From Pirellulales bacterium (GTDB lineage Bacteria > Planctomycetota > Planctomycetia > Pirellulales > DATAWG01), in NCBI GenBank assembly GCA_035939775.1, contig DASZFO010000071.1, positions 1-37,739 of the forward strand: a stretch of DNA of 37,739 nt. The letters run 5' to 3'. The stretch's first letter is position 1. Every line of letters begins with the position of its first letter. A program made the position numbers and the translations under genes. Positions 13,866 through 35,279 of the stretch are shown here, one piece after another. Below the pieces are notes generated by a model. It had not been told where the DNA came from. It made no database searches and worked only from the letters and a program-made list of their open reading frames with translations.

Positions 13866-13985
13866 CCGCCGGGGACCGTCCTCGATTTCTCCCTCTCCCT
13901 TGACGGGAGAGGGCCGGGGTGAGGGTGTCGCGGAGCAAAACGGGAACTGTCCCCCTCTCCGCAGGCGATTCTCGGATAGGCTCTT
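13866..13985. mobile_element. Rearranged MITE relic with a second palindrome inside
   Basis: The left arm GAACCGCCGGGGACCG and right arm GGCGATTCTCGGATAGGCTC, then TTA, match the type B element. Its core is partly replaced by a CCTCTCCCTTGACGGGAGAG hairpin with GGGCCGGGGTGAGGG. The direct repeat GGACCAGCCCGGA occurs on both sides (about 13853 and 13994). Confidence 0.55.
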
Positions 13986-14079: not shown

Positions 14080-14118
14080 TTGCTCCGGCTGCCGGCGGTC
14101 GGGGATAATCCGGCCATG
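14080..14118 (+). promoter_or_regulatory. Leaderless-type promoter cassette, copy 1
   Basis: TTGCTC (14080-14085), an 18-bp spacer, GATAAT (14104-14109), six bases (CCGGCC) and ATG 14116. It stands before a 20-codon remnant of the FQFSLRTLL family. This is the first of 12 copies up to 26,217. Confidence 0.6.
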
Positions 14119-14178
14119 ATTTATCCGCTCAAACGCAAACGCCGATTTCAATTCAGCCCGGCCGGCCTGCTAGAATAA
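14116..14178 (+). pseudogene. Truncated FQFSLRTLL-family leader (20 codons)
   Basis: The frame reads MIYPLKRKRRFQFS and then departs from the family into PAGLLE and a stop. The family start (basic residues, FQFSLRTLL, membrane helix) is recognisable only up to the serine. Its last codons (TAGAAT, 14171-14176) double as the -10 of the next gene. Confidence 0.5.
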
Positions 14179-14185
14179 CCGCATG
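14171..14185 (+). promoter_or_regulatory. TAGAAT-N6-ATG leaderless-type start
   Basis: TAGAAT lies exactly six bases (AACCGC) before ATG 14183, the cassette geometry without the cassette sequence. TTCAAT 18 bp further upstream could act as the -35. Confidence 0.4.
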
Positions 14186-14443
14186 GACAACCCCGCGAAT
14201 CCGCCGTTGAATCCGCCGCTACTGGACGGCTCCGAATCGACGCCGAAGGCGAGGCCGGTGTTTCGCGTCCTCGGGATTGTGGCTTTCATGTTCTTGGGCG
14301 TCGCGAGCTTTGGTCGGGCCGTATTCAGCGGCTTCCGCGAAGACTTTTGGTCGGCTGGATGGAGCGCATATTCGGGCTTTGTGTTTGCGGCCATTGGCGT
14401 TTCCTGGTATGCGAGATTCCGCCACATGCGGACGAAGTTGTGA
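14183..14443 (+). CDS. Small two-helix membrane protein
   Basis: This protein of 86 residues has a Pro/Asn-rich cytoplasmic-looking start (MDNPANPPLNPPLLDG), a hydrophobic helix (about 26-46, VFRVLGIVAFMFLGVASFG), a short polar loop, a second helix (about 57-75, WSAYSGFVFAAIGVSWYA), and a basic end (RFRHMRTKL). No family is recognised. There is no Shine-Dalgarno sequence; the -10-like TAGAAT six bases upstream suggests leaderless translation. The acyltransferase gene starts 40 bp downstream, so the two may share a transcript. Confidence 0.65.
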   Translation: MDNPANPPLNPPLLDGSESTPKARPVFRVLGIVAFMFLGVASFGRAVFSGFREDFWSAGWSAYSGFVFAAIGVSWYARFRHMRTKL

Positions 14444-14483
14444 GATTGGCCGGCGAACAATGGACTCGAAGCAAGGAGCAACT

Positions 14484-15110
14484 ATGCTTGCCATGCCGCC
14501 GGTTCAAACCAGAATTCGAATTGCCCCGGCCACGAATCAAGATCGTGCAGCAGTTTATCGGCTCCGACACCAGGTTTACGCTCGCGAACTCCACCAGCAT
14601 GCCGAGAATCCCGAGGAACTACTAACCGACGCGCTCGACGGTTTCAACGATTACATTACGGCGTCGCTGGATGGCGAGATCGTCGGTTTCGTCAGCCTCA
14701 CTCCACCCGGGCACGGACGGTATTCGATCGACAAGTATCTCGCCCGGCAGGAACTGCCGTTCCCTTCGGACGATCGACTGTACGATGTTAGATTGCTGAC
14801 GGTGGCCGCGGAGTATCGAGGTCGCCCGATCGCTGGCCTGCTGATGTATGCGGCCCTGCGGTGGATCGAATCGCGCGGTGGGACAAGAATTGTTGCCATC
14901 GGCCGGCGCGAGATATTGGGCATGTATCTCAAGGTGGGATTTGAGCCACTCGGGCGTGAAATCCAATCGGGCTCGGTCCGATTCGAGCTGATGACTGCGA
15001 CCACGAGTTCCATGCGTGAGAGCTTAGCCCGTTATAAACCGGCCATGCGTAAGGTCGAAAGTGGAATCGATTGGCAGCTCGGAATACCGTTTCATCCGCC
15101 AGCGATCTGA
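14484..15110 (+). CDS. N-acyl amino acid synthase-like (FeeM-type) GNAT protein
   Basis: This protein of 208 residues has the fold signature of GNAT/FeeM-type acyltransferases: RLRHQVYARELHQH (26-39) as in N-acyl amino acid and acyl-homoserine-lactone synthases, a central strand region with EIVGFVSLTPPG, and a cofactor-loop-like segment EYRGRPIAGLLMYAALRWIE (110-129). Known relatives move an acyl chain from acyl carrier protein to an amino acid. Substrate and product here are unknown. ATG 14484 is selected because AAGGAG lies 6 nt upstream; ATG 14460 is the longer alternative. It may be transcribed with the preceding small membrane protein. Confidence 0.7.
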   Translation: MLAMPPVQTRIRIAPATNQDRAAVYRLRHQVYARELHQHAENPEELLTDALDGFNDYITASLDGEIVGFVSLTPPGHGRYSIDKYLARQELPFPSDDRLYDVRLLTVAAEYRGRPIAGLLMYAALRWIESRGGTRIVAIGRREILGMYLKVGFEPLGREIQSGSVRFELMTATTSSMRESLARYKPAMRKVESGIDWQLGIPFHPPAI

Positions 15111-15526
15111 TCCAAAACGAGGGCGAAAATGCCCATTGCGTTTCGGCCAATCGCCCGGCACGAACTGAAGAAATCCACGGCCGAACCCGCTCCTGGACGA
15201 TCTGGACGCGTCGGACGATGTTTTGCAGCTCTTTCCATGAGGGCTTCTTCTCCTATCTCCGGCGCCGATTGAGCCTCGTCGTCGCAAAGCCGGTCCTTTG
15301 GAGCCATTCCTTAGCCTCCGTCTTTGTTCCCTGGCCATTGCTGCTGGTTCGGATAAGTTCGTCCAGTTCGTCCGTAATCCACAAGTCATGCGAGCGCGTC
15401 GTCGGCCTCTGACACCAGGCGGTCGGTCGGCAAATGTAGATCGTTCATCATCGAAGCCCGTTCCTGCACGCCGCGATCGCCCTGGGCAGCCTTGCTCCGG
15501 CTGCCCGCGGTCGGGAAAATGCGGCC
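15111..15526. other. Gene-free stretch with a possible - strand relic and promoter cassette 2
   Basis: No intact gene is visible. On the - strand an open stretch (about 15447-15256) reads LWITDELDELIRTSSNGQG and onward with protein-like composition, hits TAG at 15253-15255, and continues open in the same frame (WKELQNIVRRVQIVQERVRP). This could be a decayed gene, but the family is not recognised and chance cannot be excluded. The right end carries promoter cassette copy 2. Confidence 0.25.
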
Positions 15527-15529
15527 ATG
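15492..15529 (+). promoter_or_regulatory. Leaderless-type promoter cassette, copy 2
   Basis: TTGCTC (15492-15497), a 17-bp spacer, GAAAAT (15515-15520), GCGGCC, then ATG 15527. The spacer is one base shorter than in most copies. Confidence 0.5.
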
Positions 15530-15745
15530 CGGACCGAGCCGCCTCCGGACGGATTCTTCACTCGCGGTCGTGTAGAATGGCGGGCGGTGCGAGAGAGGCG
15601 CGAGGCAGATTATCAGCGTGCCAAGCTCGCGTTCCAGGATGGCGGTGGAGTGCGGCCCTCTATCAACGGTCGCCTCGAAGTCGATCCCGCAGACCAATCC
15701 GACAGGTTGCCCCAACCCCCTTTCGCAAACCCTGGAGACTCTTGA
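15527..15745 (+). CDS. Hypothetical 72-residue protein coupled to the next gene
   Basis: The ORF begins at the cassette ATG and encodes a charged 72-residue protein (Arg/Glu-rich centre, EWRAVRERREADYQRAKLAF) without membrane helix or known motif. Its TGA (15743-15745) overlaps the ATG of the zinc-ribbon gene by one base, an arrangement typical of translational coupling. No relative is recognised. It may be a real small protein, a relic, or merely a translated leader. Confidence 0.4.
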   Translation: MRTEPPPDGFFTRGRVEWRAVRERREADYQRAKLAFQDGGGVRPSINGRLEVDPADQSDRLPQPPFANPGDS

Positions 15746-15951
15746 TGGCATTCTGCCCGAAATGCAAAGGTGTTTTGGACGAGATGGCGTTGATATGCCC
15801 TCATTGTGGATTTGATTTTCCCTCGACGTATGTTGAGCGGCGCAATGGCATCGAGTTTTCTCGCCTTGCTGACGTTGCGCTGGTGGTTGCGGCGCTCATT
15901 ACGGGAGTTGGCTGCGCAGCCGCCGTAATCGGAGTGCCGATAGCATCGTAA
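15745..15951 (+). CDS. Zinc-ribbon small membrane protein, probably frameshifted
   Basis: This 68-residue product has a zinc ribbon at its start (C4, C7, C18 and C21 in CPKC and CPHC), then FDFPSTYVERRNG and a hydrophobic helix (about 43-64). GGAG lies 9 nt before ATG 15745. After the TAA at 15949-15951 the next frame stays open and encodes a second hydrophobic helix (LTALIGCPIAFLYQFALLIV, near 15963-16022) ending in FRSSR. This suggests that an original two-helix protein of about 105 residues has been cut by a one-base shift. The relic part has no start or ribosome site of its own. Confidence 0.65.
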   Translation: MAFCPKCKGVLDEMALICPHCGFDFPSTYVERRNGIEFSRLADVALVVAALITGVGCAAAVIGVPIAS

Positions 15952-16135
15952 ACGGACAATGGTTAACGGCGTTGATTGGTTGTCCGATCGCCTTTCTATA
16001 CCAATTCGCCTTGTTGATCGTTTTTCGTTCGAGTCGGCAAGCTGCAGCGACCCCAAGCCCTCGCGTCCGGCCGCGAGGAGTGAATCAGCCTCACGCTGGC
16101 CCCCAGGACCTTTCATTTTTTCAATTTGGAAACCG

Positions 16136-16211
16136 CACACTAGCCCGACGCGCCAGCGAGGGTTCTGGCTTTCCAAGGGAATTCCCACGCTTGCGCTTCG
16201 GGCTAGTGACT
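16136..16211. repeat. CACTAGCCCGA palindromic repeat
   Basis: CACTAGCCCGACGCGCCAGC at the left pairs with GCTTGCGCTTCGGGCTAGTG at the right (about 19 of 21 matches over the arms). It lies in the gap after the zinc-ribbon gene and may act as a terminator hairpin. The frame through it gives a meaningless ORF. Confidence 0.7.
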
Positions 16212-16276
16212 AAAGTGGTCGCCCCAAACCTCGTGATATGAAAAAGTAAGAAGCCCTGCGCTGGCCCCAGCATCGC

Positions 16277-16315
16277 TTGCTCCGACTGCCCGCGGGCGGA
16301 GATAATGCGACGATT
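16277..16315 (+). promoter_or_regulatory. Leaderless-type promoter cassette, copy 3 (start triplet ATT)
   Basis: TTGCTC (16277-16282), 18 bp, GATAAT (16301-16306), GCGACG, then ATT 16313 where other copies have ATG. Confidence 0.5.
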
Positions 16316-16357
16316 GGATTCAGCCTGCGCAACCTCATGCAGTGGAGATATCTATGA
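16313..16357 (+). pseudogene. FQFSLRTLL-family leader remnant overlapping a lipoprotein start
   Basis: From the expected start triplet (ATT) the frame reads IGFSLRNLMQWRYL and stops at TGA 16355-16357, which overlaps ATG 16354 (ATGA). Only the FSLR part of the family is recognisable. If translated from ATT, it could couple translation of the lipoprotein; otherwise it is debris. Confidence 0.4.
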
Positions 16358-16767
16358 GTCGTCTCTCGCATCGCCGCCACTTATTGCCCGTATGGACTCT
16401 GTTCGTGTCGCTCCTCACTCCGACTGGTTGCGGGCAGAACAACCAAACTCCGCCGAAGGAGAAGGATGTGGAGAAGGAGCTGGACGGTACAAGCACCGCG
16501 ATCGCATTAGGTGAGACCGAGCCACCGGTCCTCACGAAGGCGATCGCAGATAGAATCCGTCCAGGCTTATCGCAGGAAGAGGTACTGTCGTTGTTGCAGG
16601 ACGCAGCGCGGAACACACGCGCCGCCGGATCCTTGGATTCTGCGGTCGCCCTGGGCAAGTTGAATGACATTCGATTCGATCTGACCGTTAGTCAGGGCAA
16701 GCGGAAGTTGGTGTTGGCTTTCAAAGACCGCAAATTGGTAGACAAGACGCAGGAGGGATTGGAGTAG
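16354..16767 (+). CDS. BamE-like small lipoprotein
   Basis: This 137-residue protein has a signal peptide with lipobox TPTGC (Cys near 26), a polar Lys/Glu-rich linker, and a domain with IADRIRPGLSQEEVLSLL, reminiscent of the G-hydrophobic-S/T-x-x-E-V helix of BamE/SmpA-type domains, then RKLVLAFKDRKLVDKTQEGL. Exact function is unknown; it should be membrane-anchored on the periplasmic side. ATG 16354 is chosen because GGAG lies 7 nt upstream; ATG 16342 is also in frame. A related GMTEAEVE motif occurs in the lipoprotein at 21465-22376. Confidence 0.65.
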   Translation: MSRLSHRRHLLPVWTLFVSLLTPTGCGQNNQTPPKEKDVEKELDGTSTAIALGETEPPVLTKAIADRIRPGLSQEEVLSLLQDAARNTRAAGSLDSAVALGKLNDIRFDLTVSQGKRKLVLAFKDRKLVDKTQEGLE

Positions 16768-16781
16768 GACTCGCGCTCAAC

Positions 16782-16819
16782 CGCCCAGAATCAAGCCGCC
16801 CGCATCCCGCTGCGTCAAC
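16782..16819. repeat. 38-bp block repeated at 21403-21440
   Basis: CGCCCAGAATC followed by AAGCCGCCCGCATCCCGC matches 21403-21440 at 34 of 38 positions; all four differences are transitions. Here it follows the lipoprotein gene; at the other site it precedes one. Confidence 0.6.
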
Positions 16820-16900
16820 CGTGGGACGTTGAGAATCCCGCCCGGCGATGCGTTGGCCAGTGGGCTGCGGGGATCGTGACTCCCATGGGTCGATCATCTG

Positions 16901-16938
16901 TTGTCGGGCTGCCCGCGGTCGCGAATAATGCGGGCATG
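16901..16938 (+). promoter_or_regulatory. Leaderless-type promoter cassette, copy 4
   Basis: TTGTCG (16901-16906), a 17-bp spacer, AATAAT (16924-16929), GCGGGC, then ATG 16936. Confidence 0.5.
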
Positions 16939-17265
16939 CAAACCGAGGCGCCCCAAGCTGATCGGCCTGCTCAAAAACATCAAGGCCGGCACGGTCGTCT
17001 TGGGCGATACGATGAACGGAGCGGCCGCGCGAGCATAGGTATATTGCCTCGCGATTCGCTGGCGGATGGAAAGGCGGCGTTTGGAGCCGTCTCAGAGCCG
17101 AAGCCACTGGCCTTCGAGGCGGCTGTCGAGGCACCGTCGGTGAATCCGGAGTACGGCGAGGACTTTTGGATTCCGTTGGTCGGCGTGATGGATCTCGTGC
17201 TACCGGAATCGGATGTCCGGTGATCGCCGACTTCAAGACCAGCGGTGGCGGCGGAGAACCGCGAC
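16936..17265 (+). pseudogene. Relic of a PD-(D/E)XK (RecB-like) nuclease
   Basis: The frame from the cassette ATG runs to TGA 17221-17223. Its last third reads YGEDFWIPLVGVMDLVLPESD, and the next frame continues directly with PVIADFKTSGGGGEPRR. Joined across a missing base, these give the G-x-x-D ... D-F-K-T core of RecB/Cas4-type nucleases. The upstream half is poorly conserved, and a third frame near 16935-17035 also looks protein-like (PKLIGLLKNIKAGTVVLGD). The fragment is thus a broken, mosaic remnant with only the catalytic core visible. Full-length relatives have hundreds of residues more. Confidence 0.5.
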
Positions 17266-17272
17266 GACTCCT

Positions 17273-18988
17273 TTATTCCAGCCTAGACGGTTCCTTCCGC
17301 GATGCGTCCGAGGACTTCACGCCGCCGTCGGCCGCTGTTTCCCACAAGCCTTCGAGGGCACGCATTACTGCCTGGCGCTGCGGATAGTCATCTGCCCGCT
17401 CCTTGGCGGCCGCCGGTACGGCAGCGGTAGCGATCTCGTCCGTGGTTGCCTCGCGCGTGCGCATCACGTAGTCGAATCGCTGCATCTTCGGCCAAGGATC
17501 GGAACCCATATCGCGGATTTCATGCACGACCGAAAAATCCTGCTTGAGATAGGTCACATCCGCGCGGACGAAACTGCCGGACGCGCCCTGGTAGTAGACT
17601 TGCGCTCGCGGCAAGGGTTCGCCAGGAGTCGGAACGAGGCCGCGAATCGGATCGTGTTCCGAGAGCGACGGAGCATGGCACAGATAGCAGTTGCGCAGGT
17701 GGTTGATCCGCACCAATTCCGACTTGACCCAAACGCCCTTATCATTCTTGAACGGCAGACTGGGATCCGGCTGTTCCAGCATTTTGTTCAGTTCGGGAAG
17801 CGCCCCGACGTCGTTGACCGCAACTAACGCCCGCGCAGCGTGAATGGCAACCGGCGGCCAGGGATAGCGCAACCCGGCGAGAAGTTGTCGGCGATATTCG
17901 GATTTCGGCCGATCCTTAAGAGCGTCGCAAGCCGATTTCCGCACTGCGCTCGAAAGGTCATAGATCGCGCGATCGGCGAGCGCCGCACTGGCCTCTAGGG
18001 ATTTTATAATATCAAGCGATGCGATCAGTTGCAGCCGAACGGTTTGGTCGTGTGGTTGGAGCATTTGCACGAGCGTCGAAGTGGCCGTGAATTCATGAAT
18101 GTGAGGGTCGTTGCTCAGGATCGTAAGGAGTTCCGATTCAAAAGGCGCGCCCAATTTGCGGGCTGTTTCGATACTAAGAGCGGGATACCCGCGGCTCGAC
18201 TCCTCAACGAGCGGCATACGATCCAAGAACCGATGCAGGCCGGACGCAATCTTTTGGATTTCTTCCGCCTCGCCCGGCGACTTTCGACAGGTCGCGCCGC
18301 GACGGAACGGAATGCCCGCCAATTCGGGATGGCGCGAGGCAAGGTCGGGAATCAACGAATTCTCCGCAAGCACAAGCACGGTGGTCGACCCACGTTTGCC
18401 GGCCGCTGCGTTCGGCACCGACTTGACGATGCCAGGCAACGAAAGCAAATCGAGTTCAATCGAATTCATTTGCAAATCGCGCGATAATTCTTCGGCGCTC
18501 TGCACATGATCCAAACCGGCCAATCCTCGATCGACAACCGCTTCGACGAGGTCCCTTGAATTCTGCCGAGCACGGGACAATCGTTTGTCGTTGGCGCGGT
18601 CTGGATGCCCAGATGGCAAGGCCGCGGTCGAATGGGCGGTCGGATCTTCCTTCTTGGCAGGCGCCAACGTCTGTAGTGCGTCGCGATGCGCTAGCGTCGG
18701 CCGCGGATCGAAATCGAGCGCGGATTCGGAGCCGGACAACGAGATTTGAGCGATAGAGGCGGCCAACAGAGCCGGCGGATGGATCTGCATTGTCGGGGCT
18801 GAGAAATCCTGAAGCGAGGGCGTTTGCTCAAGGGCGGGTGGCGGTGCCGCGGGCCAGAAAACTCTTGCCACGCCGAAAACGACTAAAAAAGAGGCGATGA
18901 CCGTCCCACTCCAAACGGCCGCCCAATTCGTCGCATAGGGAGCCTCGATATGAGTGCCATGCAGCGGACCGGTGGATGAAGCAGGCAT
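17273..18988 (-). CDS. HEAT-repeat protein with a CXXCH heme motif and membrane anchor
   Basis: This 571-residue protein has one hydrophobic helix near the N-terminus (about 22-42, AVWSGTVIASFLVVFGVARVF), a Pro/Ala-rich linker, then an alpha-helical repeat region resembling HEAT repeats (for example SLEASAALADRAIYDLSSAV and PPVAIHAARALVAVNDVGAL). Near residues 434-438 it has a single CYLCH motif, the pattern for covalent c-type heme. HEAT plus CXXCH proteins are common in planctomycetes but their reactions are mostly unknown. ATG 18988 is preferred because GGAGG lies 8-9 nt upstream; a TTG at 19129 would extend it by 47 residues. It is one of only two - strand genes in the middle region. Confidence 0.78.
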   Translation of the reverse strand: MPASSTGPLHGTHIEAPYATNWAAVWSGTVIASFLVVFGVARVFWPAAPPPALEQTPSLQDFSAPTMQIHPPALLAASIAQISLSGSESALDFDPRPTLAHRDALQTLAPAKKEDPTAHSTAALPSGHPDRANDKRLSRARQNSRDLVEAVVDRGLAGLDHVQSAEELSRDLQMNSIELDLLSLPGIVKSVPNAAAGKRGSTTVLVLAENSLIPDLASRHPELAGIPFRRGATCRKSPGEAEEIQKIASGLHRFLDRMPLVEESSRGYPALSIETARKLGAPFESELLTILSNDPHIHEFTATSTLVQMLQPHDQTVRLQLIASLDIIKSLEASAALADRAIYDLSSAVRKSACDALKDRPKSEYRRQLLAGLRYPWPPVAIHAARALVAVNDVGALPELNKMLEQPDPSLPFKNDKGVWVKSELVRINHLRNCYLCHAPSLSEHDPIRGLVPTPGEPLPRAQVYYQGASGSFVRADVTYLKQDFSVVHEIRDMGSDPWPKMQRFDYVMRTREATTDEIATAAVPAAAKERADDYPQRQAVMRALEGLWETAADGGVKSSDASRKEPSRLE

Positions 18989-19099
18989 TGTCGCAACCTC
19001 CAGAGCTTGCGTCGGGAGCGGAAGCAGAAGCGGTCTCTTGCTGCGTGGCGGTGTTTCTTTAGTTCGTTTGGTCGGAGCGGTTTTCTTCCATCGGCCGAT

Positions 19100-19129
19100 A
19101 TTATCATCCTCACCTGCCGCAGATTGCAA
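19100..19129 (-). promoter_or_regulatory. Promoter for the HEAT/CXXCH gene
   Basis: On the - strand TTGCAA (19129-19124), an 18-bp spacer and GATAAT (19105-19100) form a good promoter. The leader to ATG 18988 is about 105 nt with a proper ribosome site, so this gene is not leaderless. The sequence loosely resembles the + strand cassettes. Confidence 0.5.
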
Positions 19130-19195
19130 GCAGACGTGGTGCGAGAGACAGGATGAAGCGCTGCGTCAGGCGAGGAGCGCTAAGGCGATTACACC

Positions 19196-19234
19196 TTGCT
19201 CCGGCCTCCCGCGGTAGCGGATAATGCGACAGCG
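19196..19234 (+). promoter_or_regulatory. Leaderless-type promoter cassette, copy 5 (start triplet GCG)
   Basis: TTGCTC (19196-19201), 18 bp, GATAAT (19220-19225), GCGACA, then GCG where ATG is expected. It precedes the MITE-split pseudogene. Confidence 0.5.
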
Positions 19235-19496
19235 AAGCGGCGTTTTCAGTTTAGAGCCTACCCAAAAACCGCCTGGGCAAAGGGGACAGTCCCCGTTTTG
19301 CTCCGCCGACCATCGCGGCGATGGTGCCCGCGCAAAAGGGGGACAGTCCCCGGCGGTTTTCGGATAGGCTCTAAGCCTGCGCTCACTGTCGATCGTCGTC
19401 GCGTTGCTGACGGTGGTCGGCGGTGATGTCGGACGGCGGGCTGAGATTGTGCGTGAGCGGACGCGATTTGTCGGGCGGCTAATCACCCCAGACTAG
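19232..19496 (+). pseudogene. FQFSLRTLL-type membrane-protein gene split by a MITE
   Basis: Left of the MITE the frame reads AKRRFQF. Right of it the frame continues SLRSLSIVVALLTVVGGDVG, then RRAEIVRERTRFVG, to TAG 19494-19496. Removing the 118-bp element and one 3-bp target copy restores CAG TTT AGC CTG, that is FQFSLRS, in frame. The rebuilt protein has the family plan: basic start, FQFSLR, one membrane helix, short basic tail. The start codon is also lost (GCG), so the gene is dead. The ThuA gene starts 5 bp after its stop. Confidence 0.7.
19254..19371. mobile_element. 118-bp palindromic MITE-like element, arm type B
   Basis: The ends GAGCCTACCCAAAAACCGCC and GGCGGTTTTCGGATAGGCTC form the inverted repeat. 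The core has two GGGGACAGTCCCC palindromes around a short CCATCGCGGCGATGG hairpin that accounts for the extra length. It is flanked by TTA (19251-19253) and TAA (19372-19374). Confidence 0.75.
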
Positions 19497-19500
19497 CATC

Positions 19501-20277
19501 ATGATCCTCTTCCAAGCCCTTGGCATCTCAATCGCAGTTGTCGCTCTATGCGGGTGTGCGAATAGCACGCCGTCCCCAACAAGTGCGACAACGCAGCCCA
19601 CCTTCAACGTGCTCGTCGTCACCTCACGCGCCAAAGACCACTCGAAAATGATCGCGGCCGCGGCTCCCATGTTGAAGATGATGGCAACCGACAACCATTT
19701 CGATGTGGATATTACGGATGACGACACGGTCATCAATGATGCCAATCTCGCCCGGTATCAGGTCTTCGTTCAATTGCAGGAAGCGCCGTTTGATATGACC
19801 CCGCAGGAGCAGGCGGCTCTACAGAAATTCATCGAGGAGGGGCACGGCTGGGTTGGCATTCATGCGGCTGGGCTGACCGGCCGGGAATTTCTGGCGCCCG
19901 GCATGACTTACTGGAGCTGGTTCGAAACCTTCCTGGGCGGTGTGGTCTATTCGCCTCACCCGCCGTATCAGAAGGGCACGCTGGTCGTCGAGGATCACAA
20001 TCATCCCATCACCAGAAACCTTCCCGACCGGATGGTCATCTCCGATGAGTGGTACGAGTTTGATAAGAGCCCGCGGCCGCACGTTCACGTGCTGGCGCAC
20101 GCGGATGAATCGACCTACAAGCAGAAGAAGCCGATGGGTGATCATCCCATGATTTGGATCAATGAGAAGTATCGGCGGATGGTTTACATCGCCATCGGCC
20201 ATGATGCTTCGCTCTGCTTGAACCGCGATTTCGAAGTGCTGGTGCGCGACGCGATCTTTTGGGCGGACTCTCAATAA
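19501..20277 (+). CDS. ThuA-domain lipoprotein 1
   Basis: This 258-residue protein has a lipobox (ALCGC, Cys19), a Thr/Ser linker, and a ThuA-like (trehalose utilisation, glutamine-amidotransferase-like fold) domain: FNVLVVTSRAKDHSKMIAAA, then QVFVQLQEAPFDMTPQEQAA, LQKFIEEGHGWVGIHAAGL, and GDHPMIWINEKYRRMVYIAIGHD. Enzymatic activity of such domains is mostly unproven; many are linked to sugar or glycoside metabolism in planctomycetes. It is followed by a paralogue 59 bp downstream, so the two likely form an operon. No Shine-Dalgarno site is visible before ATG 19501. Confidence 0.85.
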   Translation: MILFQALGISIAVVALCGCANSTPSPTSATTQPTFNVLVVTSRAKDHSKMIAAAAPMLKMMATDNHFDVDITDDDTVINDANLARYQVFVQLQEAPFDMTPQEQAALQKFIEEGHGWVGIHAAGLTGREFLAPGMTYWSWFETFLGGVVYSPHPPYQKGTLVVEDHNHPITRNLPDRMVISDEWYEFDKSPRPHVHVLAHADESTYKQKKPMGDHPMIWINEKYRRMVYIAIGHDASLCLNRDFEVLVRDAIFWADSQ

Positions 20278-20336
20278 CGAATTCGTAGCTGCGACGCCGG
20301 CGCCGCATCCGCAGTCGCAGTCGGAAGAGAATCAAT

Positions 20337-21119
20337 ATGAACCGCTTTGGTCGCTGTGCCAATGCGATTGCCTTCTGCATTCTCGTTGGCTGTCAAACTA
20401 ATAATCCGAAGGTCGCGACTGGTCCACCGCCGTTTCACGTGCTCGTGATGGCTGAGACCGGCGGCGTGCACGCTCCGTTCGTTGCCGCGGCAAAGTCCTG
20501 GCTTGCGGATCAGGCGGCAAAGCAGCACTTCACGCTGGACTACATCGAGAACGCCGACCGGATCAACGATGAGTTTCTTTCGCACTACCAGCTTTTTCTG
20601 CAACTGAACTATCCACCGTACGGCTGGAGTCCCACCGCCATGGCGGCGTTCCAGAAATACCTGACCGAAGGCAGGGGCGGTTGGGTGGGCCTGCATCACG
20701 CATCGCTGCTCGGCGATTTTGATGGTTACCATGTCTGGCCTTGGTATGACCAGTTCATGGGCGGCATCATCTGGAAAGACTACATTCCCAAATTCGCTTC
20801 GGGAATAGTCAACGTCGAAGACGCAAATCATCCGGTGATGAAGGGCATCCCGGCCTCGTTCGTCATCAAGAAGGAAGAATGGTACACGTACGACAAAAGT
20901 CCCCGCCAAAATGTGCATGTGATCGCTAGCGTGGATGAGTCGACCTATATCCCCAATGGCCGCGTGAAGATGGGAGATCATCCGGTGATTTGGACGAACG
21001 ATAAGATCAAAGCACGCAACGTCTATATTTTCATGGGTCATTCGCCGGTGCTGTTTGATGACATCGCCTACAAGGCAATTCTGACAAACGGGATTCTGTG
21101 GGCGGCAGGGCGGAACTAA
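20337..21119 (+). CDS. ThuA-domain lipoprotein 2
   Basis: This 260-residue paralogue of the preceding gene has a lipobox (LVGC, Cys19) and the same domain order: FHVLVMAETGGVHAPFVAAA, LTEGRGGWVGLHHASLLGDF, WYTYDKSPRQNVHVIASVDE and GDHPVIWTNDKIKARNVYIF. GGAAG lies about 10 nt before ATG 20337. The two proteins should sit side by side on the periplasmic face of a membrane. Moderate divergence points to an old duplication. Confidence 0.85.
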   Translation: MNRFGRCANAIAFCILVGCQTNNPKVATGPPPFHVLVMAETGGVHAPFVAAAKSWLADQAAKQHFTLDYIENADRINDEFLSHYQLFLQLNYPPYGWSPTAMAAFQKYLTEGRGGWVGLHHASLLGDFDGYHVWPWYDQFMGGIIWKDYIPKFASGIVNVEDANHPVMKGIPASFVIKKEEWYTYDKSPRQNVHVIASVDESTYIPNGRVKMGDHPVIWTNDKIKARNVYIFMGHSPVLFDDIAYKAILTNGILWAAGRN

Positions 21120-21228
21120 CAAGCGAAGGCGGACGTGAGATCACTCCGGTAGCCGATGAGCGCGAGCATCGAGCGGCGAATCGATTCAGCCAGATGGCCG
21201 TCCCGCGTTATGCGGCTGAGAGTATCCC

Positions 21229-21267
21229 TTGCTCCGGCGGCCCGCGGTCGGGGACAATGCGGCCATG
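21229..21267 (+). promoter_or_regulatory. Leaderless-type promoter cassette, copy 6
   Basis: TTGCTC (21229-21234), 18 bp, GACAAT (21253-21258), GCGGCC, then ATG 21265. Confidence 0.55.
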
Positions 21268-21378
21268 CTAGCCCAAATCGAAACGATCGACGTGGGGATT
21301 CTTCTTGCCGTCGTGTTGATCCTCATCGGGAATAGATTGCCTCTCGTGCTGGGCCCACTCCGATGGCTTCGCGATTAA
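21265..21378 (+). CDS. 37-residue single-helix membrane peptide
   Basis: The ORF starts exactly at the cassette ATG and encodes MLAQIETIDVGILLAVVLIL followed by IGNRLPLVLGPLRWLRD. It is clearly related to the N-terminus of the membrane protein at 25561-26085 (ETMDVAIVVTVVLLLNGNSL) but stops before the FQFSLRTLL part. It may be a truncated paralogue or a real one-helix peptide. Confidence 0.5.
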   Translation: MLAQIETIDVGILLAVVLILIGNRLPLVLGPLRWLRD

Positions 21379-21402
21379 CAGTGTCAGCCGGGCGTTTGCG
21401 TT

Positions 21403-21440
21403 CGCCCAGAATCGAGCCGCCCGCGTCCCGCTGCATCGAC
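21403..21440. repeat. 38-bp block repeated at 16782-16819
   Basis: This lies just upstream of the lipoprotein gene starting at 21465. It is 34/38 identical to the earlier copy with four transitions. On the - strand three of these are silent in one frame (VDAAG-GRLDSG), which may hint at a former coding segment. Confidence 0.6.
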
Positions 21441-21452
21441 CACAGGACTTGG

Positions 21453-21467
21453 TATGATGGGGGTATG
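21453..21467 (+). promoter_or_regulatory. TATGAT-N6-ATG leaderless-type start
   Basis: TATGAT (21453-21458) lies exactly six bases before ATG 21465. The sequence upstream is not the cassette, and no good -35 is visible. Confidence 0.4.
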
Positions 21468-22376
21468 GACGCGTCCTCTCCGTACGATTCTTGTTGCGCT
21501 TTCCAACTGATGCTGGCGATCGCGTTTCTGTCAGGGTGCGGCGGCGCCCCAAGTGACAATAAGGCGAAAGATGAAAACTTGAGCCATACGGACAGTCTCG
21601 GAGGCCGCGCCGAGCCACAATCCGCAAGCGCCCTACTTTCCTCCGCTGATTACGCGGCATTCCGTCCGGGAAGATCAAAGACCGAAATTCTCAATGAACT
21701 CGATTGGCGCGGCAATTTCCAGACGGCGACCGAATATAATGGAAAAAGTGCTTCTGCGATCAGCTACGGCGTCGATGGAGGACCCTTGAGCAACAACGGC
21801 CGCGAGATTTGGGCGATATTTGTTGACGATAAGTTTGAAAAACTTGTCGAACCGCCACCGGGGAACCCGGAGTGGGCTAAAACCCCGCGAATCGAGATCG
21901 GCGACTTTGGCTACCTCAAGCGTGCGACCGAGAGTAACGCCGTCAGAATTGCCGATCTGGAAAAGGAGATAGCAGCACACCCTGCTCCTTCGCATGTGGA
22001 CTGGGGCCTAACGGCGGTTTTTCTTGCCTTCTCGCCAGCGCTTGAGGCGAAGCGCGCGCCTGCCTTGAAAAAGAACAGAGCGCTACGTGATGAGTATAAC
22101 GCTGCACGGCTGAAGATTGGGATGACCGAGGCCGAGGTCGAGTCCATATTTAAGGCGAAGCCGTTGCGATCGGGCGAGGTGAAAGCGGGCTCATTCAAAG
22201 TCTACGGGAGTGCAGAGTCGCTCGACATCACGGCTTATCTTCACTATTCGAATGTCCTGGTGTTATTCCGTGAGGGCAAGCTCGTGGGAGTCGACAGCGG
22301 GGATATCCCTGGAGGGGAGGACGGGCTTCGACGGATTCGGGAAGGCTTTATTTATTTGCTTCCTCAGCAGAACTAA
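21465..22376 (+). CDS. Lipoprotein with a BamE-like C-terminal domain
   Basis: This 303-residue protein has a signal peptide ending in the lipobox AFLSGC (Cys25), a variable middle part with VDGGPLSNNGREIWAIFVDD, and a C-terminal part with ARLKIGMTEAEVESIFKAKP, a motif like that of BamE/SmpA domains. It is predicted to be anchored in a membrane with the body in the periplasm; no partner is identifiable. ATG 21465 is chosen because it gives a proper lipoprotein signal and has the TATGAT-N6 geometry. An open extension to 21363 would overlap the 38-bp repeat and the 37-residue ORF. Confidence 0.7.
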   Translation: MDASSPYDSCCAFQLMLAIAFLSGCGGAPSDNKAKDENLSHTDSLGGRAEPQSASALLSSADYAAFRPGRSKTEILNELDWRGNFQTATEYNGKSASAISYGVDGGPLSNNGREIWAIFVDDKFEKLVEPPPGNPEWAKTPRIEIGDFGYLKRATESNAVRIADLEKEIAAHPAPSHVDWGLTAVFLAFSPALEAKRAPALKKNRALRDEYNAARLKIGMTEAEVESIFKAKPLRSGEVKAGSFKVYGSAESLDITAYLHYSNVLVLFREGKLVGVDSGDIPGGEDGLRRIREGFIYLLPQQN

Positions 22377-22443
22377 TGATTGAATGGCCCTGACCTCCCG
22401 CATTGCAGCACGGAGTGAGTCAGCACGCCACCCCGCGTATCTC

Positions 22444-22482
22444 TTGCTCGGGCTGCCCACGGTCGGGGATAATGTGGCCATG
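22444..22482 (+). promoter_or_regulatory. Leaderless-type promoter cassette, copy 7
   Basis: TTGCTC (22444-22449), 18 bp, GATAAT (22468-22473), GTGGCC, then ATG 22480. The frame from this ATG encodes only 13 residues (MQDEPLKARIAVA) and stops at 22521, 63 bp before the next gene. Confidence 0.55.
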
Positions 22483-22584
22483 CAAGACGAGCCGCTGAAA
22501 GCGAGAATCGCTGTCGCTTAATGCTGGGTCAACCAGCGTCGGTCGGCATATCACGAATTATCTATCTCCCAGAAGGAGGCCCGC

Positions 22585-22836
22585 ATGGCAGTCCATGTCC
22601 ACCACGCGTTCGAGAAGGGTGACGATGACAGCGGCGAGAACCCGATGGAGAAAATGAGTGAGATGTTCGGGCCGGGTCACGTCGATCAAGCCGTTCGCTC
22701 CGCGATTCTGGCGTGCTGGATGGCGCTGCCCAAGGAACGCCGCAACGTCGAAGAAGTCGAGAAGGAAGTGCGTCGTATCTTAGAGCGCGCGCTCGCCAAC
22801 TTCCGCGAAGACGCGACATCGTTCGGCCGTCATTAA
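22585..22836 (+). CDS. Conserved small acidic helical protein
   Basis: This 83-residue protein has a His-rich start (MAVHVHHAFEKGDDDSG), then FGPGHVDQAVRSAILACWMALPKE and a long charged helix (VEEVEKEVRRILERALANF), ending REDATSFGRH. From memory, similar short proteins are widespread in planctomycetes, without known function. AGGAGG lies 6 nt before ATG 22585, one of the best ribosome sites in the window. Transcription could start at cassette copy 7. Confidence 0.75.
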   Translation: MAVHVHHAFEKGDDDSGENPMEKMSEMFGPGHVDQAVRSAILACWMALPKERRNVEEVEKEVRRILERALANFREDATSFGRH

Positions 22837-22979
22837 GCGGAACCGATCTTGAACAACCCACGCGACGGCCGCCGATAAGAACCGCCAACAACCTCACAAC
22901 CTCGAACAGCCTCCGCACGCGGAACTGGAAGCGGCGGCGGATTGGCCCAAGGTTCTCGGCGGGGTTTTTCACGCGCTGG

Positions 22980-22994
22980 TATAATGCGGCCATG
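22980..22994 (+). promoter_or_regulatory. TATAAT-GCGGCC-ATG leaderless-type start
   Basis: A perfect TATAAT (22980-22985) is followed by GCGGCC and ATG 22992, as in the cassettes, but the upstream part differs and no TTGCTC is present. Confidence 0.5.
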
Positions 22995-23291
22995 AGCATG
23001 TCGTTTCAACTCTCGAAGCGGACGATTTCTTACGCCTTGGGGTGGCTGTGCCTGGCGATAGCGGCCGGTGGGTGGGGAGTCATCTCAGTCGGCGGTGATT
23101 CGACAGTAACGGCCTTTGGGTTCATACTCGCCTTCAACTGTTTTTGGGCGGCGATTGAATCATTGCGCGGGCGTCGTTTCGCCCGCATCGCTCTTGATCG
23201 GGCGATTCTCGTACTTGTAATGATGATGGGCTATTGGATCTTGCGAACCATACCGCTGTCGGACAGCGACCCAGGGATGCCCACCGGCTAG
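22992..23291 (+). CDS. Small membrane protein, MSM-FQLS family, paralogue 1
   Basis: This 99-residue protein reads MSMSFQLSKRTISYALGWLC, with hydrophobic helices at about 14-32, 39-55 and 67-84. It aligns with the protein at 25198-25476 (MSMPFQLSIGRILRAMAWLL; both continue LAIAAG-W). The function is unknown. Start ATG 22992 is fixed by the paralogue and by the TATAAT six bases upstream. A longer open frame to 22713 overlaps the preceding gene and is rejected. Confidence 0.7.
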   Translation: MSMSFQLSKRTISYALGWLCLAIAAGGWGVISVGGDSTVTAFGFILAFNCFWAAIESLRGRRFARIALDRAILVLVMMMGYWILRTIPLSDSDPGMPTG

Positions 23292-23342
23292 TTTTTCCTT
23301 GGCAAATCGGCACCGGTATCACCGCCCGGCCGCGCGTATCGC

Positions 23343-23381
23343 TTGCTCCGGCTGTCCGCGGTCGCGGATAATGCGGCAATT
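23343..23381 (+). promoter_or_regulatory. Leaderless-type promoter cassette, copy 8 (start triplet ATT)
   Basis: TTGCTC (23343-23348), 18 bp, GATAAT (23367-23372), GCGGCA, then ATT. The following gene uses a normal ribosome site 42 nt downstream, so here the cassette would give a leadered mRNA. Confidence 0.5.
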
Positions 23382-23420
23382 CCCGGAGATCGCATTACTC
23401 GAATCGTTGGAGGGCCTGGA

Positions 23421-24170
23421 ATGCGCAAGTTGTTTTTCGGAGCCTTTGTCCTGGCCGTTTCACTAGCTCGTGTTGCGAGGGCCGACGATCAGGCCGACGC
23501 CAAGGCGATCCTCGACGACGGCATCAAGGCTCATGGCGGCGAGTCTGAATTGCTCAAGTTGACTCGTCTGCACTGCAAGAGCAAGGGCACATGGTACGAC
23601 GGCGACAAGCAGACTCCCTGTTCCTACGAGACCTACTTTGACGGCAGCGACAAGGGGCGGATTATGTCGTTTGATGAAGACAATAAACTCAGGAGAATCG
23701 AGGTTTTCAATGGCAAGGACGTGTGGGAGAAAGACGACGACCAGGAGACCGAGACGCTTTCGGGCGAGCGACTGAAGGACCGACAGGAATTGATGTACGA
23801 CAACTGGGCAACCCAGCTTTTTCCCTTGAAAGCCGAGGATTTCCACTTGTCCATCCTCGACGAGACCGAGGTTGACGGACGGAAGGCAGTTGGCATCCTT
23901 GTCAAGCACGAGCGACACGAACCGTTGAAGCTGTATTTCGACAAGGAAACCCATCTGCTTGTGAAGGTCCAAGGCAAATTCAAGAACCTGGACGACGGCA
24001 AGGAGCACGATGAAGAAGCCGTTTATTCGGACTATCGAGACGTGCAGGAGACGAAGCAGCCATTCAGGTGCAAAACGTTCTCGGACAAAAAAGCGGACAC
24101 TGATCTTCATCTTACGGAAATGACGCCATACGATAAGCCGCTCGACGAAAAGTTGTTCCTCAAACCGTGA
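23421..24170 (+). CDS. LolA-like exported protein
   Basis: This 249-residue protein has a signal peptide (MRKLFFGAFVLAVSLARVARA) and a periplasmic domain with alternating beta strands. It begins DDQADAKAILDDGIKAHGGE, a start typical of planctomycete proteins annotated as outer-membrane lipoprotein-sorting (LolA/LolB-like) proteins, and includes EVFNGKDVWEKDDD and LKLYFDKETHLLVKVQGKF. Such folds have a half-barrel that can hold lipid; an actual role in lipoprotein sorting is not shown. ATG 23421 is supported by GGAGG about 9 nt upstream. Confidence 0.72.
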   Translation: MRKLFFGAFVLAVSLARVARADDQADAKAILDDGIKAHGGESELLKLTRLHCKSKGTWYDGDKQTPCSYETYFDGSDKGRIMSFDEDNKLRRIEVFNGKDVWEKDDDQETETLSGERLKDRQELMYDNWATQLFPLKAEDFHLSILDETEVDGRKAVGILVKHERHEPLKLYFDKETHLLVKVQGKFKNLDDGKEHDEEAVYSDYRDVQETKQPFRCKTFSDKKADTDLHLTEMTPYDKPLDEKLFLKP

Positions 24171-24200
24171 GCAGGTGACTCGGCTGGCACGGCCAAGCAT

Positions 24201-24234
24201 CCAGCCGCCCGCGGTCGGGGATAATGCGGCCATG
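24201..24234 (+). promoter_or_regulatory. Leaderless-type promoter cassette, copy 9 (no -35)
   Basis: GATAAT (24220-24225), GCGGCC and ATG 24232 are kept, but the TTGCTC part is replaced. A GTGACTCGGCTGG block upstream (24174-24186) also precedes copy 10. Confidence 0.5.
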
Positions 24235-25119
24235 ACAATCCAGTTCGGTCTGAGAGCAATCTACCGCAACATGAGCGCCGCCAAGTTCACCATCGCGTTT
24301 TGCGTTTTCGTAGCGCACGCAGGCGTTGCGTCGGTTCCCGACGGATTGTCGTTACGCTGGCTACGGGCGGCGCGGGCGTGCGGGCAAGTCACCGAACCAA
24401 AGCCGGCGGATCATCGAGTCTCGGGCGAACTAACCGGCCGATTCCTCGTTCACGGAAAGCTTGCTCCACCGATTGTCTTTGGCCCGATCATGCCGCGTAC
24501 GGGCAAGCGGATTACGGATGACTCTCTTAGCGTGTCCGGCGAACAGCAGGCGCTAGCGAACGTTATCGTGTATTTGGCGCGCGGCGCCGACGGCGGGCGA
24601 CCACCCGCGATCGCCGACGAGAAGCCGAATTCCGACCCGGTCATCATTTCGATCTTCGATGGCCACCTTGTCCCCCGCGTGGTCGGCTTAAGAGACACCC
24701 AGGCGCTCGTTATCGACAACTTTGACGATGACTCGTGCTTTTTCAGCTTCAATCCGACAGAAATTGGCCCACGAGTCCGCGTCGATTCCATGTCGCGGGC
24801 AGTCGTGCGAGTTACCAAGGCTCGGCGGTATCCGGGCGAGATCGAGTGCAATGCCCATGATTGGTTGCGAGGATTCGTCTATGTGTCGGATGATCCGTAC
24901 TTTGCCGTCAGCGACGACGACGGGCGATTCACCATCAAGAATGTTCCGGTCGGGCAATGGGTGTTCGCCGCATGGCACGAACGGGCATCCAAGCTTGACG
25001 ATGTTTCTATCGATTCCAAGCCGGCCAAGTGGAACCACGGGCGATTTACGCTCACGATACGCCCCGGCGTTAATTCCTTGGGAACAGTCGAAATCCCAGC
25101 CGAGACGTTTGCGCGATGA
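24232..25119 (+). CDS. Exported cupredoxin/carboxypeptidase-regulatory-like protein
   Basis: This 295-residue protein starts at the cassette ATG. The first 13 residues (MTIQFGLRAIYRN) resemble the FQFSLR leader; a normal signal peptide begins at Met14 (MSAAKFTIAFCVFVAHAGVA). The body matches the methylamine-utilisation/plastocyanin-like plan: VIVYLARGADGG, RVVGLRDTQALVIDNFDDDS, YPGEIECNAHDWLRGFVYVS, DDPYFAVSDDDGRFTIKNVP, VGQWVFAAWHER. Type-1 copper sites in relatives use His, Cys, His and Met. Cys and one His remain (ECNAHDW), while the first His and the Met positions look replaced, so copper binding is doubtful. Secretion is likely. Confidence 0.72.
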   Translation: MTIQFGLRAIYRNMSAAKFTIAFCVFVAHAGVASVPDGLSLRWLRAARACGQVTEPKPADHRVSGELTGRFLVHGKLAPPIVFGPIMPRTGKRITDDSLSVSGEQQALANVIVYLARGADGGRPPAIADEKPNSDPVIISIFDGHLVPRVVGLRDTQALVIDNFDDDSCFFSFNPTEIGPRVRVDSMSRAVVRVTKARRYPGEIECNAHDWLRGFVYVSDDPYFAVSDDDGRFTIKNVPVGQWVFAAWHERASKLDDVSIDSKPAKWNHGRFTLTIRPGVNSLGTVEIPAETFAR

Positions 25120-25161
25120 GCCGGGACTTATCGTTACTCCAAGTGACTCGGTTGGACTCGC

Positions 25162-25200
25162 TTGCTCCGGTTGCCCGCAGTCGGGGATAATGCGGCTATG
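25162..25200 (+). promoter_or_regulatory. Leaderless-type promoter cassette, copy 10
   Basis: TTGCTC (25162-25167), 18 bp, GATAAT (25186-25191), GCGGCT, then ATG 25198. Confidence 0.6.
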
Positions 25201-25476
25201 AGCATGCCGTTTCAATTGTCGATTGGACGGATTCTCCGCGCGATGGCCTGGCTGTTGCTGGCGATCGCGGCCGGTCGGTGGTGCGTTAATTCATTAGGCG
25301 GCAGTTTTCATGTAACGTTTTTGGCGTTCGTAATCGCTTTCGGTTGCGTTGGATCGTCGGTTGCATCCTTGGAGGGTCGCGGTCTTCAATCCATCGCCGG
25401 CCACTGGGCCTACGTTGCGTGCATAATGGCGGAAGCCACCTGTCTTCCGTTTGCGTTGCACGCGATCATCCCTTAA
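25198..25476 (+). CDS. Small membrane protein, MSM-FQLS family, paralogue 2
   Basis: This 92-residue protein reads MSMPFQLSIGRILRAMAWLL with three hydrophobic segments (about 14-30, 38-56, 67-88). It is a paralogue of 22992-23291: the start, LAIAAG-W and the spacing of helices agree, while the C-terminal halves have diverged. The start is fixed by that alignment and by the cassette. No function is known. Confidence 0.7.
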   Translation: MSMPFQLSIGRILRAMAWLLLAIAAGRWCVNSLGGSFHVTFLAFVIAFGCVGSSVASLEGRGLQSIAGHWAYVACIMAEATCLPFALHAIIP

Positions 25477-25512
25477 CCGCATCTTCGTTGTCGAATTGGC
25501 GGCAAGAATCCC

Positions 25513-25551
25513 TCGCTCCGACTGCCCGCGGTCGAGGACAATGCGGCCATA
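25513..25551 (+). promoter_or_regulatory. Leaderless-type promoter cassette, copy 11 (start triplet ATA)
   Basis: TCGCTC (25513-25518), 18 bp, GACAAT (25537-25542), GCGGCC, then ATA 25549. An in-frame ATG follows 12 nt later. Confidence 0.5.
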
Positions 25552-25560
25552 CTAGCCTGG

Positions 25561-26085
25561 ATGGAAACGATGGACGTGGCGATTGTCGTGACCGTCGTAT
25601 TGCTTCTCAACGGAAATAGCTTGCGCCGTATACTGGCGACGCTGCGACGGCAGTCGCGTGCGTCCGGCGGCGCCAACCGCGGGGCTCACGCAGATGAGAA
25701 GCCTCGCCGCCGATTCCAATTCAGCCTGCGAACACTGCTGATCGGCGTCACGCTGCTCGGCGTGGCGTGTGGCTATATTGCGCGGCAAGCGGAGATGGTT
25801 CACGACCGGAGGGCGGTACTGGCAGATATCGAAAGCAACGGTGGCGGCTTTTTTTCTACCGTCCGCACTACGGCCGGGTTCTGGAACCGGTTTCCCAACT
25901 GGCCAGATCAAGCGATCGCGTCGATCGGCAGCAAGGATCAACACGACTCGCCTGCCGGAACGATGATGCGGACGATTCTTGGCGACGAAGTCGTCGTGGT
26001 CATTTGGCTGCCAACGACAGTCCCTCGATCAGAGCAGGATCGGATTAGGAAGTTTATTCCCGAAGCCTATTTGTGGAAGTTCTAG
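25561..26085 (+). CDS. FQFSLRTLL-family membrane protein
   Basis: This 174-residue protein has a first hydrophobic helix (about 4-20, MDVAIVVTVVLLLNGNSL), a basic linker, the signature RRRFQFSLRTLLIGVTLLGV with a second helix, and a soluble C-terminal part (about 75-174) with FWNRFPNWPDQAIASIG and EVVVVIWLPTTVP. It is the only complete family member in the window; fragments occur at 14116, 16313, 19232 and 26759. Its N-terminus parallels the 37-residue ORF at 21265. By that comparison the ancestral start is 25549, where ATG has become ATA, so ATG 25561 is used here. Confidence 0.72.
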   Translation: METMDVAIVVTVVLLLNGNSLRRILATLRRQSRASGGANRGAHADEKPRRRFQFSLRTLLIGVTLLGVACGYIARQAEMVHDRRAVLADIESNGGGFFSTVRTTAGFWNRFPNWPDQAIASIGSKDQHDSPAGTMMRTILGDEVVVVIWLPTTVPRSEQDRIRKFIPEAYLWKF

Positions 26086-26178
26086 CGACAGGCGAGCAAG
26101 CTCTGCCGCGCAGGCAATCCTCGGGCACCTCCCCTGCCCGGAGTCAGTCGCTCAGCGTCCCGTGACTCCACGAATCGC

Positions 26179-26217
26179 TTGCTCCTGCTGCCGGCGGTCG
26201 GGGATAATGCGGCCGGA
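26179..26217 (+). promoter_or_regulatory. Leaderless-type promoter cassette, copy 12 (start triplet GGA)
   Basis: TTGCTC (26179-26184), 18 bp, GATAAT (26203-26208), GCGGCC, then GGA. The next gene start is 65 nt downstream, giving a leadered transcript. Confidence 0.5.
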
Positions 26218-26647: not shown

Positions 26648-26653
26648 GATTAA

Positions 26654-26753
26654 GAGTCTGTCCGAGAACCGCCGGGGACTGTCCCCCTTTTGCGCAGTCC
26701 GCGGAGCAAAACGGGGACTGTCCCCTTTGCCCAGGCGGTTCTCGGATAGGCTC
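26654..26753. mobile_element. 100-bp palindromic MITE-like element, arm type B
   Basis: The ends GAGTCTGTCCGAGAACCGCC and GGCGGTTCTCGGATAGGCTC form the arms. Two GGGGACTGTCCCC palindromes flank GCGCAGTCCGCGGAGCAAAA. TAA occurs on both sides (26651-26653 and 26754-26756) as a 3-bp duplication. Confidence 0.8.
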
Positions 26754-26758
26754 TAACG

Positions 26759-27886: not shown

Positions 27887-27934
27887 ATGGCCCTGAGTGA
27901 CATCGACAGACTCGTTTCATACGGCGACTCCGAC

Positions 27935-28124
27935 GTAGGATGCGTCGAGCGAAGCGCTAAGAGCCTATCCGAGAACCGCCGGGGACTGTCCCCTTTTTGC
28001 GCAGTCCGCGGAGCAAAACGGGGACTGTCCCCTTTGCCCAGGTGGTTCTCGGATAGGCTCTAACGCATCGTGAAGCGGGAGACAACTCCCGGTGCGTCCG
28101 CTCGGACTTGACGCACCCTACGCG
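27935..28124. repeat. GTAGGATGCGTC inverted repeat interrupted by a MITE
   Basis: GTAGGATGCGTC at about 27935 pairs with GACGCACCCTAC at about 28109-28120. The 100-bp MITE (27961-28060) lies between the two halves, so the older repeat appears split by it. Confidence 0.55.
27961..28060. mobile_element. 100-bp palindromic MITE-like element, arm type B
   Basis: The ends are GAGCCTATCCGAGAACCGCC and a complement with one mismatch (GGTGGTTCTCGGATAGGCTC). TAA flanks both sides (27958-27960 and 28061-28063). It is almost identical to 26654-26753. Confidence 0.8.
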
Positions 28125-28136
28125 ACTCGCACGTCA

Positions 28137-28163
28137 GCACTGGCCGACTTCGCTGGCCAGTGC
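28137..28163. terminator. GCACTGGCC/GGCCAGTGC hairpin between convergent genes
   Basis: A perfect 9-bp stem with a 9-nt loop sits in the gap between the convergent TIM-barrel and PEP-CTERM genes. There is no T-run, so termination is only inferred from position; it may be another dispersed palindrome. Confidence 0.35.
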
Positions 28164-28188
28164 CACCGGGCGCGCCTGAGTGTACTCC

Positions 28189-31674: not shown

Positions 31675-31751
31675 AAATGCGCTCCTCGTTGCAAGAGTAG
31701 AAGAGGCGGCAGCCACCGTTAGGCTAATACCCACGCGCGACGAATGCAAGG
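31675..31751 (-). promoter_or_regulatory. Conserved leader of PEP-CTERM paralogue 1
   Basis: CCTTGC (31751-31746), a 16-bp spacer, TATTAG (31729-31724), then GCCT, a CCTCTTC-like segment and CGAGGAGCGCATTT before ATG. The order and spacing match the leader of paralogue 2 (35208-35279). Confidence 0.5.
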
Positions 31752-31766
31752 AAACTGAGATCGGTT

Positions 31767-35207: not shown

Positions 35208-35279
35208 AATGCGCTCCTCGAAACAGATTGAAGAGGGCAATCCCTCCCAGGCTACTACCCGCGCGCCGCGAACACAAGG
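35208..35279 (-). promoter_or_regulatory. Conserved leader of PEP-CTERM paralogue 2
   Basis: CCTTGT (35279-35274), a 16-bp spacer, TAGTAG (35257-35252), GCCT, a CCCTCTTC segment, then CGAGGAGCGCATT before ATG. This matches the leader at 31675-31751. Confidence 0.5.

Follow-up and report, generated by a model that had tools for sequence, protein, structure and literature searches.

Lineage-specific multiplication of the 5' end of a membrane-anchor gene family with a predicted leaderless design in a Pirellulales bacterium

The closest described relatives of the element reported here are the leaderless promoters of Deinococcus-Thermus and Actinobacteria, in which the -10 lies directly upstream of the start codon, there is no Shine-Dalgarno motif, and a -35 is not required (PMC12340547, PMC3160421). 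In Deinococcus, a TANNNT motif adjoining open reading frames (ORFs) was tested experimentally (PMC12340547), and -10-type signals next to ORFs have been used to predict leaderless genes (PMC3160421). For species with few Shine-Dalgarno motifs, planctomycetes included, leaderless mRNA and/or ribosomal protein S1 has been inferred from base composition (PMC5397173). Here we describe a 39-bp block that recurs in a Pirellulales bacterium, both in a window of 37,739 nucleotides, which is the entire contig C71 of a draft genome (6.39 Mb in 384 contigs), and elsewhere in that genome. The block ends in GATAAT-N6-ATG, a -10-adjacent arrangement of the TANNNT type with N6 or N7 in which the first base is G, not T; a signal of this type also precedes 30 of 93 genes of the same family that lack the block. 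The likeness to the described promoters covers the position of the -10 and the lack of a Shine-Dalgarno motif, and for the -35 it consists solely in the absence of the motif from the family genes here. The mode is genome-wide in those phyla, whereas here it is found chiefly in one gene family and, in the source genome, has spread as a 39-bp block whose roughly 70 copies are nearly identical.

We consider it likely that the block is the promoter-start 5' end of a family of membrane-anchor genes, that this design is leaderless, and that it recently spread to about 70 copies in the lineage. In the window, the exact pattern TTGCTC-N17/18-GATAAT matched seven times, always on the plus strand, and never in 100 shuffles. 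With mismatches allowed, 12 block copies were found, again all on the plus strand. Six bases separate the -10 from the start triplet in every one of the 12, the triplet is ATG in 7/12, and the spacer measures 17 bp in the copies at 15492 and 16901 and 18 bp in all others. These numbers confirm, at the same places, what the initial annotation had reported, and they support its proposal of a promoter plus start codon at a fixed N6. TTGCTC had been ascribed to all 12 copies; most have it, but at 24196 the left half is of foreign origin and lacks the hexamer. All 12 counted copies are present, but a 13th related start (-10 at 22980, ATG at 22992) had been missed.

As the initial annotation had suggested, the genome and its relatives were searched with a profile of the block (a sequence-only model of 47 columns; threshold, E <= 1e-3). 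There were 72 matches in the source assembly (27 to 64 bits); in a sample of 146 further genomes from the order, nothing comparable turned up, the highest score being 23 bits. Statistics for the source genome rest on ∼498 kb of the assembly, and the first 270 kb of this DNA held 59 profile copies, compared with 0 in three shuffle rounds. The copy number is far above chance. The exact block pattern was not found in 39 relatives, and the exact core pattern had no match among the collected GTDB contigs, a set that may omit the source genome itself. The block is a real, strong repeat, restricted to one lineage. On 13 of the 14 contigs with at least two copies, all copies lie on one strand; contig C100 is mixed (two plus, one minus). 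In a search for the terminal inverted repeats of a palindromic repeat or miniature inverted-repeat transposable element, with a minimum arm of 30 bases and shorter arms not searched, no pair was found at the block. As far as the searched collections go, the view that no element of this kind had been described is right for the 39-bp sequence, but not for -10-adjacent leaderless promoters as such (PMC12340547, PMC3160421). The element is a multiplied, lineage-specific 5' end of a gene family, and the leaderless design was already known from other phyla.

Many block copies run on into MQTEPPKADPPKRKRRWFQFSLRTLL..., which we read as a hydrophilic leader followed by a transmembrane anchor. Among 67 copies, a profile detected the anchor whole in about 30, in part in 17, and not at all in 20, and in 9/67 a piece of it stands in another frame. 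The anchor is followed by leucine-rich repeats, by DUF1559, or by membrane proteins that belong to no assigned family; a block also heads one DUF1598 protein and one complete DUF1559 pseudopilin. Within the order, 22 of 30 genomes have the anchor, and it reaches class level (52/249 genomes); literature searches found no paper on its sequence. The block is thus the 5' end of a family of paralogues with an N-terminal membrane anchor, although in about a third of the copies this anchor has been lost or was never present. The downstream products had been called unrelated and not a gene family. Several are unrelated, but about half share the anchor, and many others are decayed or fused; because the anchor is shared by many copies, is widespread in the order, and extends to the class, "not a gene family" was too strong. 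A conserved 5' region and N-terminus with a divergent remainder are also found in the vsp and vpma families of Mycoplasma bovis and M. agalactiae (PMC2268961). There, however, the conserved 5' region is untranslated and joined to an N-terminal signal region, whereas no leader is predicted here. In addition, those families have one active promoter and Xer-type inversions, while here every copy has a promoter-like block in same-strand arrays, and no switching recombinase was identified.

To compare starts outside the repeat, we used 93 anchor-family genes without the block, found by profile in 14 genomes, the source genome included. In these genes, TANNNT stands before the ATG 20 times at N6, 10 times at N7, and 13 times at 29 other offsets together. 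The N6 hexamers are TAGAAT, TAGACT, TACAAT, TATACT, and similar. An in-frame stop codon could account for TAG or TAA at this place, but among the 26 genes with TA there, 20 have T at hexamer position 6 and 20 have A at position 4. Because these bases prevail, the stop codon is ruled out, and the signal is a -10 hexamer. The N6/N7 signal was present in 12/18 family genes of the source genome, 6/19 of G019, 4/7 of G014, 2/2 of G001, 2/7 of G015, and 2/10 of G023, with single cases in G021 and G005. As a control, we used prepilin-like genes of the source genome, G019, and G014, whose starts are well defined. Only 1/27 of these has the signal, versus 22/44 family genes of the same three genomes (Fisher P = 2e-5), and a Shine-Dalgarno-like motif precedes 9/27 pilin genes versus 3/93 block-free family genes. 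The spacing signal and this contrast lend independent comparative support to leaderless transcription and to the earlier prediction that transcripts start on the A of the ATG. If the -10 spans positions -12 to -7, the six bases after it place the predicted +1 on that A, and translation would then be leaderless. The same genes give no support to TTGCTC as a functional -35, which the initial annotation had assumed. The 30 family genes with a -10 at N6 or N7 have no -35 (TTG occurs at 18-bp spacing in 2 and at 16, 17, or 19 bp in none), TTGCTC agrees with TTGACA at 3/6 positions, and its putative role as a -35 box is unsupported.

An information profile of the block showed that the ∼40 bp up to the ATG are 75 to 100% conserved at most positions, spacer included. 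Conservation drops to about 60% in the codons after the ATG and is near background more than 17 bp upstream. The start triplet of the 67 ungapped copies is ATG in 53 and GTG in 3. A spacer nearly as conserved as the -10 is unusual for a sigma-70 promoter, and the conserved block is sharply bounded. Both would suit a regulon promoter, in which the whole 39 bp is under selection, either because the spacer serves as an operator or because a special sigma factor recognizes the sequence. We called a copy live if its ORF had at least 75 codons, and dead otherwise. Live and dead copies are equally far from the consensus over 36 bp (P = 0.76, with a similar live/dead split), and spacer divergence is alike in the two (10.9% versus 10.2%; P = 0.76). 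The longest genes carry the most diverged blocks on average (5.3 mismatches for ORFs of >200 codons versus 2.8 to 3.4), with a weak overall rank correlation between block divergence and ORF length (P = 0.07). Moreover, family genes of the same genome have the -10/N6 design with unrelated spacers, and we give the regulon promoter little credence. The -10 itself differs: 1.2% of its positions are off consensus in live copies and 5.6% in dead ones (P = 0.04). In the six bases before the ATG, 21.6% of positions are off consensus in live copies, yet the length stays six. We read this as selection on the -10, the spacing, and the ATG in working genes, with the rest reflecting recent spread. Since the fit to the consensus is the same whether a copy is dead or living, the near-identity of the 39 bp is not explained by selection for promoter function, to which the identity of the whole block had been attributed.

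The block is accompanied by a second repeat, B2, of ∼90 bp. We found 27 B2 matches in the DNA examined from the source genome, most of them in the same orientation as the closest block, and about half of them stand 18 to 43 bp upstream of a block. In the window, B2 lies at 16779 to 16874 (plus strand), 26 bp upstream of block copy 4, and a partial B2 lies at 21401 to 21451 (plus strand), downstream of copy 6. Some blocks (L014:9545, L127) are preceded by a third sequence type, GCGTCAG..CCGGCTTG.TCCCGATGCCAA..GATC.C, so that a small number of upstream sequence classes can be distinguished. Block and B2 have GCYGCCCGCG in common, and hybrids of the two occur. Block copy 9 (24196 to 24234, plus strand) joins a left half AGCATCCAGCCGCCCGCG, as in B2, to the right half of the block. 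The reverse is seen at L012:1260, where the left half of the block is joined directly to the right part of B2. Such hybrids fit recombination between the repeats, which may also be the means of spread. Two copies on different contigs, near their ends (L015:13673, minus strand; L025:7699, plus strand), share 371 bp at 97% identity, either from a recent duplication or from strain mixture in the assembly.

The arrays also resemble those of integron cassettes, in that short and mostly unrelated reading frames lie on one strand with a repeat between them; the repeat follows the gene in integrons, however, whereas the block precedes the start codon here. A recombination site or mobile cassette, in which block and B2 together are the target for swapping reading frames in an integron-like array without a known integrase, would account for the same-strand arrays on most multicopy contigs, for the 20/67 copies without any anchor, and for the half-blocks and the hybrids, which are joined close to the common GCYGCCCGCG. 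Against it, TIGR02249 (integron integrase) gave 6 weak matches, none over the cut-off and the same as in 14 control genomes, and an attC-like fold was not found, the single strand of B2 plus block folding no better than shuffles (z = +1.2). Further, the conserved block stops exactly at the ATG, as a promoter-start unit would, and ordinary recombination between similar repeats can also yield hybrids. We regard the mobile cassette as quite improbable. A dedicated recombination at the GCYGCCCGCG core could also make the 39-bp block a spreading "start module" that creates new leaderless genes and proteins with exchanged N-terminal tails, which we think unlikely.

Several observations weigh against our preferred reading of the block as a recently multiplied, leaderless 5' end. 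The live/dead split was made by ORF length, and the assembly is a draft in 384 contigs. Over the aligned stretch, copies from one contig resemble each other no more than copies from different contigs do, and homology around copies within a contig is no longer than between contigs (median, 52 versus 53 bp), which also disfavors tandem duplication as the sole mode of spread. Paralogues of one genome are not independent. The N6/N7 signal is absent from the family genes of G022 (0/12), G004 (0/5), and G016 (0/4), and a mostly more distant sample of the family has it in 2/25 genes, both at N7. For genes in general, the N6/N7 excess is only weak (15/865 candidate starts in the source genome; P = 0.01). 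A genome-wide leaderless mode was rejected: the N6/N7 excess is weak in genes of the source genome and of G019, and Shine-Dalgarno motifs are clear in the source genome. Thus, the spacing signal does not extend to the entire family; it is a trait of the family in some lineages and is not genome-wide. That some lineages lack the spacing, and that all block copies are related, would be expected if the -10 were real but transcription began elsewhere, the proximity to the ATG being inherited from one ancestral gene. This leadered promoter is very unlikely in our view, as the spacing is held in several genomes of different families although the intervening bases vary freely and the upstream DNA is unrelated.

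The individual copies in the window all lie on the plus strand. Copy 1 (14080 to 14118; spacer 18, ATG at 14116) has a decayed family start MIYPLKRKRRFQFSPAGLLE downstream. Copy 2 (15492 to 15529; spacer 17, GAAAAT, ATG at 15527) opens an ORF of 72 amino acids, MRTEPPPDG..., and copy 4 (16901 to 16938; TTGTCG, spacer 17, AATAAT, ATG at 16936) opens one of 95 amino acids, MQTEAPQADRP.... Copy 3 (16277 to 16315) is dead, with ATT at 16313 and the remnant IGFSLRNLMQ, as are copy 5 (19196 to 19234; GCG at 19232), which has an anchor remnant in another frame at 19374 to 19463, and copy 12 (26179 to 26217; GGA at 26215). Copy 6 (21229 to 21267) has GACAAT and an ATG at 21265; copy 7 (22444 to 22482; ATG at 22480) leads into a 13-codon remnant, MQDEPLKARIAVA. 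Copy 8 (23343 to 23381; ATT at 23379) lies upstream of an ORF that the initial annotation labeled LolA-like and that has no Pfam or NCBIfam match. The ATG of hybrid copy 9, at 24232, opens an ORF of 295 amino acids with no Pfam match. Copy 10 (25162 to 25200; ATG at 25198) precedes a small membrane protein of 92 amino acids, MSMPFQLSIGR..., and copy 11 (25513 to 25551; ATA at 25549) has the intact anchor RRRFQFSLRTLLIGVTLL in frame downstream. The 13th start (22980 to 22994, GTATAAT-GCGGCC-ATG) has a left half unrelated to the block; its gene (22992 to 23291) encodes a small membrane protein, MSMSFQLSKRT..., and is paralogous to the one that starts at 25198.

Other genes lie within the array on the plus strand: a GNAT protein similar to the N-acyl amino acid synthase FeeM (14277 to 15110) and two ThuA-like genes in tandem (19501 to 20277 and 20337 to 21119). 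A repeat that contains the palindrome GGGGACAGTCCCC has inverted copies of 43 to 60 bp that are 93% alike, at 19251 to 19372 and 26653 to 26756, and a further 33-bp piece at 13952 to 13984. From about 27900 to 37739, the minus strand carries long, repetitive, coding-like sequence, and a stretch near 35561 on that strand reads ...AATVPEPTT..., by eye reminiscent of PEP-CTERM exported proteins. No known RNA families and no tRNA were found in the window.

Under our preferred reading, RNA polymerase holoenzyme would recognize the GATAAT -10, placed exactly six bases before the ATG, and begin the transcript on the A of that ATG. The leaderless mRNA would be read directly by ribosomes, with no need for a Shine-Dalgarno motif, and intact copies would yield a short hydrophilic leader and then the transmembrane anchor (RRWFQFSLRTLL...). 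This 5' end would have multiplied recently to about 70 copies in the lineage, mostly in same-strand arrays and probably via duplication and recombination between direct repeats, leaving frameshifted and truncated copies, fusions to other reading frames, and hybrids with B2.

To our knowledge, little is known experimentally about how planctomycetes start transcription and translation. The family described here is a concrete set of genes with a recurrent, putatively leaderless design, a design that pilin genes in these genomes lack, and the question of leaderless initiation in planctomycetes thereby becomes directly testable. The repeat also shows that a promoter of this predicted leaderless type and its start codon can travel as one short unit and fuse to other frames, a simple route to new genes. 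If the start module is real, it would supply promoter and start codon together to any frame it lands before, and no leader would need adapting.

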